This document shows positions 14,509 to 43,698 of a stretch of DNA of 64,000 nucleotides, piece by piece. Source of the DNA: Herpetosiphonaceae bacterium (lineage in GTDB: Bacteria > Chloroflexota > Chloroflexia > Chloroflexales > Herpetosiphonaceae); the NCBI GenBank assembly GCA_013538855.1, contig JABXJS010000109.1, positions 1 to 64,000 of the forward strand. Direction: 5' to 3'. The first letter of the stretch is position 1; the number at the start of each line of letters is the position of its first letter. Below the pieces are notes generated by a model that searched no databases, was not told the DNA's origin, and saw only the letters and a program-made list of their open reading frames with translations. The position numbers and the translations under genes were made by a program.

Positions 14509-14545
14509 CACCACAACACTGATAGTTTCCACATACATTAAACCA

Positions 14546-14580
14546 CGTGCAGCGGAATCGAAAGAAGATTCCGCTGCACG
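14546..14580 (-). terminator. Terminator of the GH44 operon
   Basis: Perfect 14-bp stem cgtgcagcggaatc / gattccgctgcacg with a 7-nt loop, 18 bp after the GH44 stop on the minus strand, followed there by tggttta. Confidence 0.8.
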
Positions 14581-14598
14581 TTGGACTACCGCCGAGCG

Positions 14599-16767
14599 CT
14601 ACTTGCGCACCATCGGTAGCGAGATAACGTGGTTGAAATTCACCGGCGTGCCGCTGGGAACAACCAGCAGCGTGGCCGAGTTGGCCGTGAACGTCGTCGT
14701 GAGACTGCTTGGGCCGACGGCGACCGCTGGCAGGTGCTCGATGGCGTTGAGGTTGGCGGCACTGTAGCGGTAGACCTCGGCGGAGCTGGCGGGCGCGAAG
14801 TTGGCGAGACTAATCGCCTGCGTTATATCGCTGCCCGTCTTATTGATCACCATGATCGTCAGTGCCTGATCGCTGCGCTCGGCGGCGTAGATCGCCAGCT
14901 GATCCTGGTCGGAGCTGGTCGCCGCCACGCTGGTGGAGCCGAACTGACCGCCGTTGCCGTCGTAGTTGCGATAGAGGCGGAAGGCAAAGGCACCTGGCTC
15001 GCTTGGCGCTGGCGGCGACCACAGCGTGGCCAAGTCCAAACCCTCGCGGCCAAAGATGCCGAGCACATCGGCCTGGGCCAGCGCGCCGTTGATATCATCG
15101 AGCGCGCCCCAGTTGTACTCGGAGATCGCCAGCTTGGTGCCGGGATAGTTGGTATCAACCCAATCGCGCATACGCGGAATAAGATTAACCGCGGCGTCGA
15201 TCCAGCTCTCGTCCTGGTAGGTGGGGTCCCACAGCGAGCGCGTAGAGCGCAGGCGCAGGGCCTGAGTGCTGCTGCTGCCCGCTGGCGACAGCGACACACC
15301 GTTGGCCTGCGGGTAGTAGTGGATGTCGAAGTAGTCGAGGATGCGCTGGCCGTGCTGCGTCTCGTAGTCCTGCATCTGCTGGAGATACCACTCAGCAAAG
15401 GGCACATCGCCGTGCGCAGCGCGGTCGGGGCTGGTGGTGGGCCAGTTCGGATCGGCCTGATCGAGCGCCGAGTAGAAGTAGGCGACCCAGCCCCACAGCT
15501 CGGGGCCGAGAATTTGCGCGTTGGGATCGCGCTGCTTGATGGCGGGCGCATAGGTAGTGGCAAGATCGCGCACCTCGTCGTAGCTGGTTGGCTGCGGGTG
15601 GATATCGCGGTGCGTGTCGGACCAGAGCATCGGCTCGTTGTCGAGGGCGTAGAAGCGCACGCCGCTGCTGTTTGCCGCGCCATAGGCCGTGATCAAATGA
15701 TCCATCCAGCTTTGCACAAAGGCGGTGCCAACCACGGCGCTGGTCAGCCCTGGATCGTTGCCGGTTATCGGCGTGCCATTGGGCATGCGCCCGTTGCCAC
15801 AGTTGGTGTCCCACGGATCAAAGGACTGCTGCGAGGGATAGACCGAGGCCGGGAAGCCGCAGAAGTAGGGGTGGTTGGTTGGGCTGTCGGCGCGAGCGAC
15901 GTAGCCCATGCCAGGAATGGTGATGATTGACTGCGTGCCAGTGCGGCGATTCTGCTCAATGAAGAGATCGGAGGCCGAGCCGTCGGGCAGCGTGCGATTG
16001 GTATCGCGATCCATCGGGATATTTTCATAGAAGTAGTCTTGGGCTGTATTGCTGATGCTCGTCTGCCAGTTGTAGCGGCTGGTGGAGTTGCCGCCCCAGC
16101 GGGCGACAGGCAGATCAAGCTCCTGTGCCAGGCTCTCGGCGGGAAAGTTCATGCCGTAGATATCGGAGCTGATCGACCGCCGACTGGCCTGCGCATCGAC
16201 GGCAAGGCTCAGCGGCACCACCCCAGTGCCAACCAGCGTGATGTCATCAAGATAGAAGGCGGGCTGCGCGCTGCCGGTGGCGTCCATCCAGTTGAGGCGC
16301 GCGATCGAGGCCACGCCAAACTGTGCGAGCGGAATCGACACATTGCTCCACGTCCCAGCGGCGGCACTAACGGACACGGGCGTGCCGGAGCCGCCGGAGT
16401 CGCTGGCGTCGATATTGACGTTGAGCTGCGTCCCGCCAGGGCCGCCGTAGATCGCGAACTCCAGCGCGGAGTAGCCGCTGGCGTTGAGCGCCGGGCCGAC
16501 CCGCAGCGACAGGCCGCCCCAGGCGGCGGTAAACGTTGCCTGGAGCGCTGCCGAGCCAGCGTGAACCTGAGCGGTAGCCGCAAAGTCAACGTTGGTGTCC
16601 CACGACCAGTTGTCCCAGGCGGCGTCCAGGCTATCGGTGTACACAACGACATCGGCGGCCTGCGGATGCTGCGGCAGCTGGGCGGCAGTTGGCAGGCAGG
16701 CCCAGCCGCCAAAGCCAAAGACGACAATCCACAGCGGCATCAAGCGCCGCCATACTCCTAAGCGCAT
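14599..16767 (-). CDS. Secreted glycoside hydrolase family 44 protein
   Basis: Probable secreted endo-beta-glucanase/xyloglucanase (GH44 attacks cellulose-like glucans). The 722 residues start with a signal peptide (basic MRLGVWRRLM, hydrophobic core, AAQ near 30). Residues about 40-180 look like a beta-sandwich carbohydrate-binding domain ending FYLDDITLVGTG. The GH44 catalytic part runs from about 186 (SSDIYGMNFP, RWGGNSTSRYNW) with acid/base Glu378 in YALDNEP and nucleophile Glu550 in AISEYNWG; their 172-residue spacing fits the family. It ends with LPMVRK, like two other secreted proteins here. Start at 16767 follows AAGGAG. Third gene of the NHL-kinase-GH44 operon, 19 bp after the kinase. 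The exact substrate is inferred. Confidence 0.88.
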   Translation of the reverse strand: MRLGVWRRLMPLWIVVFGFGGWACLPTAAQLPQHPQAADVVVYTDSLDAAWDNWSWDTNVDFAATAQVHAGSAALQATFTAAWGGLSLRVGPALNASGYSALEFAIYGGPGGTQLNVNIDASDSGGSGTPVSVSAAAGTWSNVSIPLAQFGVASIARLNWMDATGSAQPAFYLDDITLVGTGVVPLSLAVDAQASRRSISSDIYGMNFPAESLAQELDLPVARWGGNSTSRYNWQTSISNTAQDYFYENIPMDRDTNRTLPDGSASDLFIEQNRRTGTQSIITIPGMGYVARADSPTNHPYFCGFPASVYPSQQSFDPWDTNCGNGRMPNGTPITGNDPGLTSAVVGTAFVQSWMDHLITAYGAANSSGVRFYALDNEPMLWSDTHRDIHPQPTSYDEVRDLATTYAPAIKQRDPNAQILGPELWGWVAYFYSALDQADPNWPTTSPDRAAHGDVPFAEWYLQQMQDYETQHGQRILDYFDIHYYPQANGVSLSPAGSSSTQALRLRSTRSLWDPTYQDESWIDAAVNLIPRMRDWVDTNYPGTKLAISEYNWGALDDINGALAQADVLGIFGREGLDLATLWSPPAPSEPGAFAFRLYRNYDGNGGQFGSTSVAATSSDQDQLAIYAAERSDQALTIMVINKTGSDITQAISLANFAPASSAEVYRYSAANLNAIEHLPAVAVGPSSLTTTFTANSATLLVVPSGTPVNFNHVISLPMVRK

Positions 16768-16786
16768 ACCTGCTCCTTGAAAATAG

Positions 16787-18454
16787 CTATGGCAGCGGCG
16801 ACACCTGAAAATCATCGAACTGAATCCGTGCGCCGTTGCCAACGGAAAGATACGTCGTGCCTGCGGTCAGCTGGTCATCGTCGGCCTCAGCGACCGGAAC
16901 ATTATCGATGGCCAGCGCAAGCTGGTGATCGCGCACCGTTGCCTGAAGCGTATGCCACGAGCTAGGCACAAGCTCAATGCTGGCCGATGCAAGCGGCGTA
17001 AAGCCGCCGCAGCTGCTGTTGCCCGCCCGTGCGATGAGCGCCGACTGCGTAGCGCTATCGATGAAAAACGAATAGGACTCACAGCCGTCGTGCTGCGCAG
17101 GATCATCCTGGGCGCGCAGCGCTAGCCAGAAGTCGGCCAAGTCATCGCTGACGAGGCTGGGCACAGCGATGCGAAAGCGCACGCTGATAGCGTAGTTTGG
17201 GGTTGTGGCCAGCAGCGCCTGCACAGCATCAGGCGGCGCGGTGGCGACCTCGCTATCGGCGGGAGCCTGGCCCTCGTAGACGAAGCCACCGCGCTCGTCG
17301 CGGGTCACCTGCCAGGCAGGCGCTGCGCCAGCCCAGCCGAGCGCCTGCCCGTCAGCAAAGGTGAACAGCTGACTTGGTGCGAGGGCTTGGGCGACTGGCG
17401 CTGCTGGAGGCGCGGTGGGCCAAGCGCTGTACCAGATTGCGCCTGCCCCCAATGCCAGCAGCACAAGACCGGCGAGCAGCCAGCGCCGCCAGCGCCGCAG
17501 GTCAAGCCGCTCCGGCTGGCGCACAGCAACGCTGAGTGGTGCAGCCTCCGACTGCTGTGCAGCGATCAGATCGTGCTGCGGCAGCGTTGCCAGCCCGGCC
17601 TGGGCGCTAGCGCTGGCGATCTCGCGCAGGGCGGCGGCCAGCGCCTCGGCCGTTTGGAAGCGCTCGGCAGGATGTTTGGCTGTTGCGCGCAGCACAACCT
17701 GCGCCAGCGCTGGTGGTAGCGTCGGCACCAGGTCGAGCGGCGTGGGCACAGGCGCGCTAAGCTGCATCTGCATGACGGCCCACGGCGTTTCGGCCTCAAA
17801 GGGACGTCGGCCAGTCAGGCACTCATAGAGCACCAGGCCCAGGCTGTAGATATCGGTACGCGCATCAACAGCGCCAGCCTGGATCTGCTCGGGGGCCATG
17901 TAGTAGGGCGTGCCAATCAGCGCGCCGGTGTCGGTGATATGCTTCAGCTCACTCAGCAGCTTGGCGATGCCGAAGTCGGCCAGCAGCGCGTGGTCATCAG
18001 GGGCAATCAGAATATTGGCTGGCTTGACATCGCGGTGGATCACGCCGTGCCGATGGGCGTAGCCCAGGGCGTCGGCGACCTGCGCCACCAGCGCACAGGC
18101 TCGTGCGGGAGCGAGTGGCCCAGCGGCCAGCAAGGTTCCCAGCGTTCCACTATCCACAAAGCGCATCGCCAGATACATCACCCCATCGGCCTGGCCGACA
18201 TCGTAGAGCGGCAAGATGAACGGATGCTCTAGATGGGCGATCGTATGCGCCTCGCGGCTGAAGCGCTCGCGCAGCGCTGGATCGCGCACCAGCTCGGCCC
18301 GAATCACCTTGAGCGCCACATAGCGATCCAGCGCAGGCTGGTGGGCCTTGTAGACCAGCGCCATCCCGCCGCCGCCGATCAGCTCAGCCACGGTATACGG
18401 GCCGACCTGTGCCCCAGGCGCTAAGGCGTGCGGGTCAGCCGCTGGCGTGCTCAT
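16787..18454 (-). CDS. Membrane Ser/Thr protein kinase with ectodomain
   Basis: PknB-like receptor kinase of 555 residues. The kinase domain (about 18-280) is complete: glycine loop LIGGGGMALVYKA, Lys49 in VALKV, HRDVKPAN at 140-147, DFG at 160-162 and GTPYYMAPEQ. A proline/alanine linker leads to one transmembrane helix (about 324-344). The ectodomain (about 360-555) has no PASTA repeats; its predicted beta pattern and segments such as SWHTLQATVRDHQLALAIDN suggest a concanavalin A-like jelly roll that could bind glycans. The start overlaps the upstream NHL gene stop (ATGA), and GH44 follows 19 bp later, so all three are probably one transcript. Ligand and targets are unknown. Confidence 0.9.
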   Translation of the reverse strand: MSTPAADPHALAPGAQVGPYTVAELIGGGGMALVYKAHQPALDRYVALKVIRAELVRDPALRERFSREAHTIAHLEHPFILPLYDVGQADGVMYLAMRFVDSGTLGTLLAAGPLAPARACALVAQVADALGYAHRHGVIHRDVKPANILIAPDDHALLADFGIAKLLSELKHITDTGALIGTPYYMAPEQIQAGAVDARTDIYSLGLVLYECLTGRRPFEAETPWAVMQMQLSAPVPTPLDLVPTLPPALAQVVLRATAKHPAERFQTAEALAAALREIASASAQAGLATLPQHDLIAAQQSEAAPLSVAVRQPERLDLRRWRRWLLAGLVLLALGAGAIWYSAWPTAPPAAPVAQALAPSQLFTFADGQALGWAGAAPAWQVTRDERGGFVYEGQAPADSEVATAPPDAVQALLATTPNYAISVRFRIAVPSLVSDDLADFWLALRAQDDPAQHDGCESYSFFIDSATQSALIARAGNSSCGGFTPLASASIELVPSSWHTLQATVRDHQLALAIDNVPVAEADDDQLTAGTTYLSVGNGARIQFDDFQVSPLP

Positions 18455-20229
18455 TTGAGCAGTACCGGCAGCTGCACCGTGTAGCCAGTGAGCACCAGCA
18501 CCAAGGTATCAGCGTAGCCATCGTTGTAGAAGCCAGCGGTGCGCTGCATCTGGAGCTGCACTTGGATGCGGCGCGTGCCGACTGGCAGGGTGCCGCTGGC
18601 CGAGTCGAAGAGCAGGCCGGTGGCATTCTGGCGGTCGGTGGCAGTGTACAAGCCCATGATGGCTTGATCGATAAACGTCCCATCGGCCTGCTGAAAGTTC
18701 AGCTCCAGAAATGCTTGGTCGTTCTCTGTCTCGTAGCCACCAAAGTAGCCCGAGGCGGCGTAGCGAATCGCCCCAGCGTCGATGGCCGCTGCCAGCTCAT
18801 CGACATAGATGACCTGCTGCGCCGTCGTGTGATCCACATTCGGCCCACCAGCAAACAGATTCACGCCCCGGTCAGGCGGGCCAGGATCGCTCGGTGCGGG
18901 CAGACCGCTCACGCCGTAGCCGACGGCAGTAAGCGCCCCATCAAGCACGGCCCACGAGCCAGGCGCAAAAACGCTGTTGTTATCGCTGGCTCCAGCGCTC
19001 GTCTCCGCCGCACCGTTGGCGATCAGATTACTCGTCAACAGCTCTGTCAGGGTTGGCCGCGCTGCATACACCAGCACACGGTTGTTCAGAAAATCGGCCA
19101 GCCACAGGCTGCCGCGGCTATCGATGGCCATGCCCAGCGGATTGTTCAGGCCGATGGTGCTAGCAGCCGCACCGCGATTAGGCTGGCTGCTGGAGAAATC
19201 TGGTTGACCAATACCCTCAGTCGGCACGTTGGAGTTCAGCGGATCGTCGAACACCAGCACCCGATGGTTGTAGATATCGCTGACATACACGTTGTCATCG
19301 GCATCGACGGCGACATCGATGGGGCAGGACATCGTTGTTGCGGTGGCGTTGTTGTTCGTTGTAACAGCCCCGCCGCACTCTAGGTGCGTGCCATCGGAGC
19401 CGCCCAGCGTATGATCGGGGGCAAAATCATTGCTCAAGACAGGCGTGTCGTACACCAGCACCTGATCGTTCTCACTGTCGGTGATGTACACATTATCGAG
19501 GCTATCGACGGCCACGCCGCGTGGAGCGAAAAGATTGACAATCTGCGCATCTGGCAGTGTGTCGGTTGTCTCTGGCGCTAGGTAGATCAGCACGCGATTG
19601 TGGAACTCATCAACGAGATAGAGGTTGCCTGCCGAGTCGAGGGCTAAACCACGGGGGAAGAAGAACTGGTTGGTCAGCGGCGGCGGATCAGGCAGTGTCA
19701 TCACAAACGTGCCAAAGCTGGCGCTGGCGGCCATGGCGCTGCTGAGCGGGGGATCGAAGATCAGCACGCGGTGGTTGTTGCTATCGGCCACATAGACGCG
19801 CCCGCTAGCGGCGACCGTGATCGCCTCCGGCCCATCCATTTTATTGAGCGTGTTAGCGGCGGAGGTGGTGTTGAAATCCGGCTGGCCGAGCACCAAATCG
19901 GCCGCTGCGCCGGTCTGAAATGCGCTCGCGCTGGGCCAGCTGAGCACGCGGTTGTTGCCATAGTCCACCACAAAAACACGGCCAGCGGGGCCAACTGCCA
20001 CACCAGCAGGCTGATTAAGGCCGCTGGCCCCAGCCGCAGGGGCGCTGCTGCTCAAGTGGGCTTGGCCCGCCACCCAGTCCGCGATCGGATCTGGAGGACG
20101 CCGCACCAGCACCAGCGCAGGGGCAACAGCTGCTCGATCAGCAGGTGACTGTGCCAGCGCGCCCAACGGTACAATAAAAAGTCCACACAGAAGCATAGAG
20201 AGCCAGCGCCAGCGTAACCGAAATGCCAT
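18451..20229 (-). CDS. Secreted NHL-repeat (beta-propeller) protein
   Basis: A 592-residue exported protein. A signal peptide (MAFRLRWRW..., core LLCGLFIVPLGALAQ) is followed by six or so NHL repeats (about 65-400), each with the pattern GLA(V/L)D..GNLYLVDEFHNRVLIY, forming a beta-propeller. Residues about 410-585 form another beta-rich domain (NLIANGAAET at its start, resembling galactose-binding-like domains). It ends with LPVLLK. The start at 20229 is supported by GGAGG six bases upstream; the longer frame is not. First gene of the operon with the receptor kinase and GH44. It may bind or scaffold surface polymers; function is not known. Confidence 0.85.
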   Translation of the reverse strand: MAFRLRWRWLSMLLCGLFIVPLGALAQSPADRAAVAPALVLVRRPPDPIADWVAGQAHLSSSAPAAGASGLNQPAGVAVGPAGRVFVVDYGNNRVLSWPSASAFQTGAAADLVLGQPDFNTTSAANTLNKMDGPEAITVAASGRVYVADSNNHRVLIFDPPLSSAMAASASFGTFVMTLPDPPPLTNQFFFPRGLALDSAGNLYLVDEFHNRVLIYLAPETTDTLPDAQIVNLFAPRGVAVDSLDNVYITDSENDQVLVYDTPVLSNDFAPDHTLGGSDGTHLECGGAVTTNNNATATTMSCPIDVAVDADDNVYVSDIYNHRVLVFDDPLNSNVPTEGIGQPDFSSSQPNRGAAASTIGLNNPLGMAIDSRGSLWLADFLNNRVLVYAARPTLTELLTSNLIANGAAETSAGASDNNSVFAPGSWAVLDGALTAVGYGVSGLPAPSDPGPPDRGVNLFAGGPNVDHTTAQQVIYVDELAAAIDAGAIRYAASGYFGGYETENDQAFLELNFQQADGTFIDQAIMGLYTATDRQNATGLLFDSASGTLPVGTRRIQVQLQMQRTAGFYNDGYADTLVLVLTGYTVQLPVLLK

Positions 20230-40651: not shown

Positions 40652-43324
40652 CTAACGGTACAGCAGCGGGAGATAGAACGTTGGCTGCGTCGCAGCAACT
40701 GGAATATCCGTCACCGCTGGGCCGTAGGTATTTGCGGCACCGCCGACCTCGATTTCTTCCAGCCAGTAGAAGTAGGTGCGACCACGCATAATATCATGAT
40801 CGACAAGGCTGTAGGCGGAGAAATCGCCCTGAGCTGGAACAATCGTAGCATTAATCTTCACAGCTGTGGCGCGATCAGCGCTCAGCGAGCGATAGACGTT
40901 AAAGCCAGCGGTCTGATCCTCTTTGCCAGTGCGCCAGCGCACGGTGACATCGTTCAGCGCGCTGGAGGCGGTGAAGGAGACCAGATCAACGTTGGTTGGG
41001 ATGGGCGGATAGAAGCCAAAGTCATAGGAGTGGTCGTTATTGCCAGCGCCGCCAGTGTTCACAGGCACCGAGACATATGCGCCACCACCGCCGACCACAC
41101 CATCGGAGTCATTGGCATCGCCAGCCGATCCATTGTAGTCGGGATTGGTCGGCACTAGGTTGGTCAGACCACCTTGGTTGAGCGGAATGCGAATCTCGTA
41201 GTTCATACCTGGCTGGATGCCACCAGGAACATTCAAAGAGTTGAAGATGTAGTTCCCGTTGGCATCGGTGACAGCCGTGCCAACCAGCACACCGTTGAGG
41301 TACAGTTCGACCGTCACACCTTCAAGCGGGAACTCGCCAGGGTCTTGGCGACCGTTCTGATCGGCGTCGAACCACACGCGGTTGCCGATCTCCAGCGGTG
41401 CAGGCTGACAGAGCGGCTCGATATCGCCGATACCCGAGGCCTTGCCAAAGGTCAGCGGCTCATCAAAGTAGTAGAGCATATACGAGCGTGCGCGCTGTCC
41501 TGACGTGCCGTCGTGCCAGATAATGCCGCCAGAGCGATAGGCATTGGCACCAGCGCCCGCCGAACCTTCTGCTGGCGGTGGGTCAAAGGCCGAGTTGACC
41601 ACCTGGTTGGTGCCCAGTACCACCGCTAGTGCGCCAAGTGTTATCTCGTCATGGGTGGGGAATGTGGCCAATGGATGGCGCTCGGTAAAGAAAAACTCAC
41701 CACCGCCGGGGCCTTGCGTATTGCCAGCACCGCTGGTCGTTAAGCTACCGCTAGTTGCATTACTCTCTAGCGTCCAGGTAGTACCATTGGGTGCCAGCCG
41801 CAGCAGATCGCCAGCGGACACGCCCTCGACTGGGCCTGTATTGATGTTGTTGTTGCCAGTTTGGTGCCCATAGCGATCAGCAACACCTAAGAGCATCGCA
41901 CCACGCTCATCGAACTCAATATCGATGGGCCATGGCTGAGACAGCGCCTCTTGTACACCATATGGATGCAGACAGTTGGCAGTGTTGTTGGGATCACGAA
42001 CACAATCGATAGTGGCGCTCCATGGCCGCCAGTCTGCCGATAAACAAACCGAGCCATTGCGAGAGGCACAGCCGCGTGCATAGTTGAGTGGAATATTGAC
42101 GACCTGCGTCCAGGTGCCACCAACAGGATCATAGGCATACACAAAGGCGCGCAGATCGCTGGCCTGCTGCGTCGACTCAGCGGTACAGACCATACCAACA
42201 TAGATTACGTCGTTGGCCGCCTTCAACGCGCCAGGGCGCAGGTTGCGATTAAGCTCGCCAGCGGGCGTGGAGGCATCAAACGGACAGCCAGTTGCGCCAG
42301 TGCCAGGGTCGGGCAGGGTGATACGGGTGATCTGGGCATTTGTTGGTGCGACAGGTGGATAGCCGATCGGCATCTGATACAGCCGCCGATCAAACAGATT
42401 GATCGCCCAGAGCGTCTGCTCATCCTCGGAGATATCGACATCGCCGAGCGAATTTTTACCAACAGCGTCCCAGCCGGTGTTGCCATTATCATTAAAGAAA
42501 TCAGCGGTATCGTGCTGATTTGGCCCGGCCGTATTGGGGCCAAACAGGGCGTTGAGATCAAGGAAGAGGCTGGCAGTATTGTTCGCGGTGTCAATCTGAT
42601 AGATCGCACCGGTGCCATCAGGGCCAAAGTCCGCGTGGCGCTTCATAAACGCGCCAGCAAAGGCCAGCTGCGAGCGGCGCTGATAGGCAATACCCCACAC
42701 CGCACCTAGCTCAGAGATTGGGCGCATAATCGCGTGGCTGGTTGGATTGGCAACATTGGCGTTGCTTGTGGTCGATGTGGTGCCGGCATCGAAGGGAAAT
42801 GATACAATAGCAGCCTCAGTATTCCCAACGTGGCTGCCATAGACATAGCAGCTAGTCAACAACACAGGATTGCTTTGACAGTACTCGCTTGGCTTATTGA
42901 CACCTACGTTGACATCAACTGCATTACTAGGAACAAACTGTACCGCAGTACCCGAGTCTGGACCAGCAGGACCATATAAAAAAGTGCTAGGCAAACCCGA
43001 AAACTCCACCCGAATTTCGGGACTGTTGGGAACAGTTAAGCTGTACTGACCAAGTGTAGCAGCTGCAGTGCTCGTTGTAGTTGAGTCAAGCAGTGCGCCA
43101 GTAGCATCGAATGCTTGGACTGTGACGCCGCCAACGCCAAACTCAAATGGGTCTTGAACGCCATTGGAGTTGTAGTCGCGATAGACCGTGCCGGAGGTAA
43201 CGTCTGCATGGGCGCGACGTACACGCGGCAGGGCCACGACAGCTAAGCCAGTAATACAGAGCAGCACCAGAGCAAGGCGTAACCTGCGCCGAGCTGGTGG
43301 CTGCAGCAGGGGAACTACGGGCAT
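40652..43324 (-). CDS. Large secreted surface protein with SdrD-like B domains
   Basis: 890 residues. Signal peptide (MPVVPLLQPPARRR, core LALVLLCITGLAVVALP). An SdrD-B-like fold near the N-terminus (GTVYRDYNSNGVQDPFEFGVGGVTVQAFDATG) and another at about 600-720 (IGNRVWFDADQNGRQDPGEFPLEGVTVELYLNG, a signature of DUF-type SdrD_B / prealbumin-like domains). The middle contains long beta-rich regions. A C-terminal FnIII-like stretch (VDLVSFTASSALNDVTVRWRTGKEDQTAGFNVYRS) precedes the final FYLPLLYR. Start at 43324 after AAGGAGG. Function is unknown; it looks like a cell-surface or matrix protein. Confidence 0.85.
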   Translation of the reverse strand: MPVVPLLQPPARRRLRLALVLLCITGLAVVALPRVRRAHADVTSGTVYRDYNSNGVQDPFEFGVGGVTVQAFDATGALLDSTTTSTAAATLGQYSLTVPNSPEIRVEFSGLPSTFLYGPAGPDSGTAVQFVPSNAVDVNVGVNKPSEYCQSNPVLLTSCYVYGSHVGNTEAAIVSFPFDAGTTSTTSNANVANPTSHAIMRPISELGAVWGIAYQRRSQLAFAGAFMKRHADFGPDGTGAIYQIDTANNTASLFLDLNALFGPNTAGPNQHDTADFFNDNGNTGWDAVGKNSLGDVDISEDEQTLWAINLFDRRLYQMPIGYPPVAPTNAQITRITLPDPGTGATGCPFDASTPAGELNRNLRPGALKAANDVIYVGMVCTAESTQQASDLRAFVYAYDPVGGTWTQVVNIPLNYARGCASRNGSVCLSADWRPWSATIDCVRDPNNTANCLHPYGVQEALSQPWPIDIEFDERGAMLLGVADRYGHQTGNNNINTGPVEGVSAGDLLRLAPNGTTWTLESNATSGSLTTSGAGNTQGPGGGEFFFTERHPLATFPTHDEITLGALAVVLGTNQVVNSAFDPPPAEGSAGAGANAYRSGGIIWHDGTSGQRARSYMLYYFDEPLTFGKASGIGDIEPLCQPAPLEIGNRVWFDADQNGRQDPGEFPLEGVTVELYLNGVLVGTAVTDANGNYIFNSLNVPGGIQPGMNYEIRIPLNQGGLTNLVPTNPDYNGSAGDANDSDGVVGGGGAYVSVPVNTGGAGNNDHSYDFGFYPPIPTNVDLVSFTASSALNDVTVRWRTGKEDQTAGFNVYRSLSADRATAVKINATIVPAQGDFSAYSLVDHDIMRGRTYFYWLEEIEVGGAANTYGPAVTDIPVAATQPTFYLPLLYR

Positions 43325-43698
43325 GGATGCCTCCTTCAACCTAGTTGCATGGTATACGGTGTGTAGTACACATAGGAGTAGTAGTGTTTACCCCAGAAGT
43401 ACAGCGAGATGCCGTCTCTACGTCCTCTTAGAACATCATGAGCGAACGCTGTACAGATGCAACAGCACCTGTCCAATTGTCAATCTTTACCTTAATCCCT
43501 GGTTTAGGTCATGGATTAGGCATAGGAATAGAGTATGGGCTATTGTAGAATAATAGCCGCAAGAGTCCTAGATGTATATCCCCCATAATCGTGAACTACT
43601 GATTAAAATTTTAGACTAAAGTCCTAGCAGCTGGCTACACAGATACGAATCAGCAGGCCGACGTGGTGTAACTCGGGGATGCGTGTATACTCATGGCT
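43325..43698. other. 374-bp intergenic region upstream of the LuxR gene
   Basis: No gene seen. It carries a perfect 13-nt palindrome tgtgtagtacaca at 43360-43372, about 36 bp from the secreted protein's start, and a -10 for the LuxR gene at 43686. The rest, around 43380-43620, is AT-richer than the surroundings and has no other clear feature. Confidence 0.55.
43686..43691 (+). promoter_or_regulatory. -10 element directly before the LuxR gene
   Basis: TATACT ends 7 bp before ATG 43699, so transcription could start on or next to the ATG. No ribosome site lies upstream. No clear -35. Confidence 0.45.

Follow-up and report, generated by a model that had tools for sequence, protein, structure and literature searches.

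A putative receptor kinase-GH44 operon in a Herpetosiphonaceae bacterium and a recurrent C-terminal tail in its Chloroflexota order

Analysis of a 64,000-nucleotide stretch of DNA from a Herpetosiphonaceae bacterium (contig JABXJS010000109.1, positions 1 to 64,000, hereafter the window) identified three adjacent genes, encoding an NHL beta-propeller protein, a Ser/Thr receptor kinase, and a CBM-GH44 glycosidase, that may form a lineage-specific, co-transcribed sensing-and-cleavage unit, a reading to which we assign a probability of about 0.42. If correct, a single operon would connect a eukaryote-like kinase that senses polysaccharides with an enzyme that cleaves them, which would be of note in a group where no ligand is known for most of the many receptor kinases. 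All parts of the operon belong to known kinds, and what is new is their combination. The more novel observation concerns the short C-terminal tail found on both exported proteins, which is real and concentrated in this order of Chloroflexota.

Gene layout and domain architecture

Open reading frame analysis placed the three genes on the minus strand (Table 1). The start codon of the kinase gene overlaps the stop codon of the NHL gene as ATGA (18451-18454), and the short gap between the kinase and GH44 genes contains AAGGAG, a Shine-Dalgarno-like motif. Both junctions had been described in an earlier note on this DNA, as an ATGA overlap and a 19-bp gap, and both were seen in the sequence; an overlap together with a 19-nt gap containing a ribosome-binding site implies coupled expression. 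The perfect stem-loop located 3' of the GH44 gene has a weak T-run and is likely the transcript end. The next gene upstream encodes a GNAT acetyltransferase, the stop codon of which lies 115 nt before the NHL start, and a search of the minus strand for a sigma-70-like promoter found none. Based on the spacing and the downstream hairpin, the NHL protein, kinase, and GH44 genes look like a single transcription unit.

Table 1. Positions and architecture of the features analyzed in the window
Feature	Position	Strand	Details
NHL beta-propeller gene	18451..20229	-	592 aa; ATG 20229, stop 18451
NHL protein layout			hydrophobic N-terminal segment; NHL ~60-390; C-terminal domain 395-585; tail VQLPVLLK
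Tail VQLPVLLK of NHL protein	18454..18477	-	from translation
Ser/Thr receptor kinase gene	16787..18454	-	555 aa; Pkinase 3e-48; all catalytic motifs
Kinase layout			catalytic domain 20-273; TM ~326-344; ectodomain 361-555
Kinase ectodomain, predicted ConA-like/CBM66-like beta sandwich	16790..17374	-	AlphaFold, Foldseek
Kinase/GH44 intergenic gap	16768..16786	-	19 nt, CTATTTTCAAGGAGCAGGT; direct sequence reading
CBM-GH44 glycosidase gene	14599..16767	-	722 aa; ATG 16767, stop 14599
GH44 protein layout			signal segment; CBM-like module 31-183; GH44 region ~186-707; tail ISLPMVRK
Tail ISLPMVRK of GH44 protein	14602..14625	-	from translation
Stem-loop 3' of GH44	14545..14581	-	perfect 15-bp stem; folding z-score -5.7 vs shuffles
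Third tailed protein in the window	40652..43339	-	895 aa; secreted; SdrD_B domains; TFYLPLLYR; outside the operon

The kinase has a complete set of catalytic motifs (GGGGMALV, VALK, the glutamate in SREAH, HRDVKPAN, DFG, and APE), and one hydrophobic segment separates the kinase domain from the ectodomain, an arrangement that identifies it as a receptor Ser/Thr kinase. No PASTA domain was detected in the kinase with Pfam, and the earlier description of a membrane kinase with a complete catalytic domain and a non-PASTA ectodomain was thus borne out. Assignment to the PASTA kinases of the PknB type was rejected, as the protein lacks PASTA and scores 322 bits (8e-96) against the PknB/Stk1 model NF033483, below its cut-off of 450 and over the kinase part only. 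Assignment as PknD was also rejected, since the NHL propeller comes from a gene of its own that overlaps the kinase gene. Elsewhere in the same genome (contig C104, L271:6576-9293, plus strand), a 906-aa membrane protein has a tandem pair of complete Ser/Thr kinase domains (residues 34-327 and 335-619), joined through a Pro-rich linker and a TM segment to an ectodomain.

The ectodomain was modeled with AlphaFold using an alignment with 15 distant domains of other genomes (16-27% identity), and the resulting model is an all-beta sandwich (pLDDT 81.2, pTM 0.81). In a Foldseek search, the top match among solved structures was CBM66 (4b1l, E 1e-9), and the five best solved matches were all to the CBM66 module of levanase from B. 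subtilis, with E between 1e-9 and 5e-9 and TM-scores of ~0.64 (query) and 0.76 (target); next in rank came levanases, galectin-like proteins, sialidases, and galactocerebrosidase. A profile of the ectodomain family, mostly built from the distant domains, also ranked CBM66 first (1.9e-12). At the level of the single sequence, PF06439 was matched with an E of 3.8e-4, although at 21 bits this is under the Pfam gathering cut-off of 26.8, and the galactocerebrosidase lectin domain and Laminin_G_3 were among the other matches below cut-off. On the predicted structure, then, the kinase ectodomain has a concanavalin-A-like (lectin/glucanase) fold, and the comparison with lectin and laminarinase folds that the earlier note had proposed as a check favored its expectation, with CBM66 closest to the model. 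The fold leaves the ligand undecided, since this class contains non-sugar binders: concanavalin-A-like sandwiches also bind proteins, lipids, and hormones, and neurexin and sex-hormone-binding globulin were among the matches to the family profile.

The NHL protein was matched by Pfam NHL (2e-41) with six scoring NHL stretches, and the closest natural protein of solved structure is the PknD sensor propeller from M. tuberculosis (1rwi, 6e-25). It has its own C-terminal tail and no membrane anchor. Its C-terminal domain had no match in Pfam, PDB, or relatives, and single-sequence structure prediction of this domain returned a pLDDT of 34. NHL propellers are common in the order, with 58 of 60 genomes matching P0003, and genome G000 (contig C62) contains a 7767-codon open frame that carries NHL-like repeats.

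For the glycosidase, PF12891 (GH44) was matched at 1e-75 over profile positions 2-223 of 223, and the GH44 region could be aligned end to end with solved cellulases (3ii1, 1.5e-132). Alignment with 3ii1 indicated that the catalytic glutamates E378 (LDNEP) and E550 (ISEYN) are kept; with the domain and both glutamates present, the enzyme is, as judged from its sequence, catalytically intact. Assignment as EpsB (NF041873) was rejected, the score of 399.9 bits falling below the equivalog cut-off of 1250. The N-terminal ~150 residues matched a 154-residue solved endoglucanase domain (7t7y, 2.6e-4) and, at a much weaker level (E 0.03-0.08), CBM30 and a xyloglucan-binding domain, and in relatives the homologous module stands before GH5, GH9, and GH44. 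Given the match to 7t7y and this placement, the N-terminal module is very probably a carbohydrate-binding module.

The C-terminal tail

The earlier note had also remarked that the GH44 and NHL proteins share the same unusual ending. The ending is indeed present in both, but it is genome-wide rather than peculiar to these two. Pattern searches combined with the stretches of DNA that were read yielded 65 sites in this genome for L-P-Phi-Phi-x-R/K-stop, and 34 of the 41 distinct readable sites (true stop, final R/K) end frames of more than 100 codons, one of which looks spurious. At least 33 proteins of this genome that are secreted or large terminate in the tail Phi-Y-L-P-Phi-Phi-x-R/K, including a third in the window, outside of the operon. 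A crude test detected a hydrophobic segment near the start codon in 13 of the 15 tail-bearing frames that were complete in the DNA read, and in many of the tailed proteins, (TP)n linkers directly precede the tail. The column profile reads V/L, Y/F, L, P, L/V, V/L/I, x, R/K, with the L and P fixed by the search pattern. Because the tail is genome-wide, it provides no evidence for coupling between the GH44 and NHL proteins, and the shared ending was rejected as a sign that the two cooperate.

Across 60 genomes, YLPxxxR-stop gave 359 in-frame matches, compared to 124 when shifted by one base and 114 when permuted and shifted, and when one locus per genome was considered, frames of at least 100 codons were ended by 22 of 30 in-frame matches compared to 1 of 30 shifted ones. 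The strict form, YLP-Phi-Phi-x-R, was found 142 times in 40 genomes belonging to the order, where the reversed control gave 2 matches; in ~360 other genomes of the phylum, the corresponding counts were 43 and 35. The excess over controls within the order, and near parity elsewhere in the phylum, demonstrate that the tail is real and concentrated in this order.

In every tail, only four residues come after LP and no helix follows. With no transmembrane helix after the motif, the LPXTG and PEP-CTERM types of sorting signal were ruled out. A search of open papers found no description of the tail, and no Pfam or NCBIfam model for it was reported in profile searches of these proteins. It is possible, with the odds a little short of even, that Phi-Y/F-L-P-Phi-Phi-x-R/K-COOH constitutes an undescribed export or anchoring signal, which would imply dedicated recognition machinery. 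The tail singles out a group of exported proteins throughout an order in which little is known of export or of attachment to the cell surface, and it offers a direct way to look for the machinery by which it would be recognized.

Gene order in relatives and competing readings

The earlier note had proposed conserved gene order in related genomes as a further check, and in this respect it was not supported, as the trio was present in no genome inspected. The GH44 catalytic domain was found in 2 of 59 relatives (twice in G016 and once in G057), and outside of these 59, a genome scan gave GH44 relatives in four named genomes only. No kinase or NHL homologue was found within 2-10 kb on each side of seven other GH44 loci, and nine related kinases inspected with their flanks, one of them on a contig of only 4.8 kb, had no NHL or GH44 neighbor. 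Searches for the ectodomain returned no homologue in the 59 relatives apart from one marginal match, and only weak non-kinase matches, none in a kinase, in 400 genomes of the phylum. By eye, the ectodomains on related kinases of the order are of the propeller, PQQ, TPR, LGFP-like, or TolB-like kind, and with so many unrelated ectodomains on these kinases, the ectodomain here need not relate to its neighbors. The absence of partner genes at the inspected GH44 and kinase loci and the near-absence of the ectodomain indicate that the trio is lineage-specific among the genomes compared, a set without a second species of its genus.

The distribution of GH44 is patchy, and full-length relatives occur in unrelated phyla. 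In two records from a different phylum, MAGs of Candidatus Nitrotoga (L082) and Lamprocystis (L083), the GH44 proteins are ~50% identical to that of the window, and in L082 the similarity is nearly full length, N-terminal module included; these records may reflect either transfer or binning error. In one relative, the best GH44 homologue adjoins what by eye appear to be sugar ABC transporter and regulator genes. In G016 (contig C1, L087), a GH44 gene lies among at least four large secreted proteins sharing a CBM2-like C-terminal module, apparently a cellulase cluster.

In the proposed sensing-and-cleavage unit, the lectin-fold ectodomain of the kinase would bind a polysaccharide, or fragments of one, in the extracellular space, and the intracellular kinase would then phosphorylate its targets, while the co-expressed GH44 enzyme, exported and equipped with its own binding module, would cut beta-1,4-glucan or xyloglucan. 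The NHL propeller would be a partner that is likewise exported, perhaps as an accessory subunit of the receptor, and both exported proteins would be routed or retained by the C-terminal Phi-Y/F-L-P-Phi-Phi-x-R/K tail. Here we infer the co-transcription, the ligand, the signaling output, and the roles of the propeller and tail, building on the gene anatomy, the intact catalytic residues, the predicted ectodomain fold, and the distribution of the tail. The polymer-sensing unit suggested previously thus retains a lectin-type ectodomain (by model), an intact GH44 enzyme with a CBM-like module, and a one-unit layout, and loses the argument from gene order. The weakest link is that sensor and enzyme would act on one polymer: the known ligand of CBM66 is fructan ends, not beta-1,4-glucan, whereas the substrates of GH44 enzymes are beta-1,4-glucans, fructan not among them.

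A somewhat less probable alternative is that the genes are co-transcribed or merely adjacent and have no shared function, forming a recent cell-surface island of one lineage with independent parts. This would be consistent with the lack of conserved synteny in any genome inspected, the patchy occurrence of GH44 with full-length relatives in unrelated phyla, the mosaic of kinase ectodomains in the order, and the genome-wide tail, but is harder to reconcile with the coupled expression implied by the ATGA overlap and the 19-nt gap with its ribosome-binding site, or with carbohydrate-related folds in both the kinase ectodomain and the GH44 enzyme.

Given that the NHL and kinase genes overlap, that among natural proteins of solved structure the NHL protein is most similar to the PknD sensor, and that kinase-NHL fusions have been described (PMC1262709), the pair could also represent a split PknD-type receptor, in which the propeller is the true sensor docking on the kinase ectodomain and GH44 is a downstream passenger. 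We consider this unlikely: the abundance of NHL propellers in the order makes the resemblance to PknD weak evidence, no NHL gene was found near any other kinase inspected, and the NHL protein is unanchored and has a tail of its own. A role for the kinase as a sensor of the cell envelope (of peptidoglycan or another wall polymer) in the manner of PASTA kinases, with GH44 unrelated, is very improbable. While its catalytic domain falls in the PknB-like group, according to the sub-cut-off NF033483 match, it has no PASTA domain and its ectodomain is modeled as a concanavalin-A-like sandwich.

Comparison with known systems

The kinase shares with PknB and PknD of M. tuberculosis an N-terminal catalytic domain, a single TM segment, and a C-terminal extracellular sensor, but in place of PASTA or NHL it has a predicted CBM66-like sandwich, and in contrast with PknD, the NHL propeller is exported as a protein of its own. 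The fold predicted for the ectodomain is that of CBM66 and PF06439 (DUF1080), with a Foldseek E of 1e-9, whereas its sequence is 13% identical and scores under the Pfam cut-off, and the module sits on a kinase rather than on a glycosidase. The GH44 enzyme has the full catalytic region and both glutamates of the endoglucanases/xyloglucanases 3ii1, 2yih, and 2e0p, to which it adds an N-terminal CBM-like module and a C-terminal LP tail. Finally, the tail resembles LPXTG, PEP-CTERM, and the T9SS CTD in being a short, recurrent, putative signal at the extreme C-terminus of many unrelated secreted proteins, but differs in comprising eight residues, without a TM helix or folded domain, and in having R/K at the last position.
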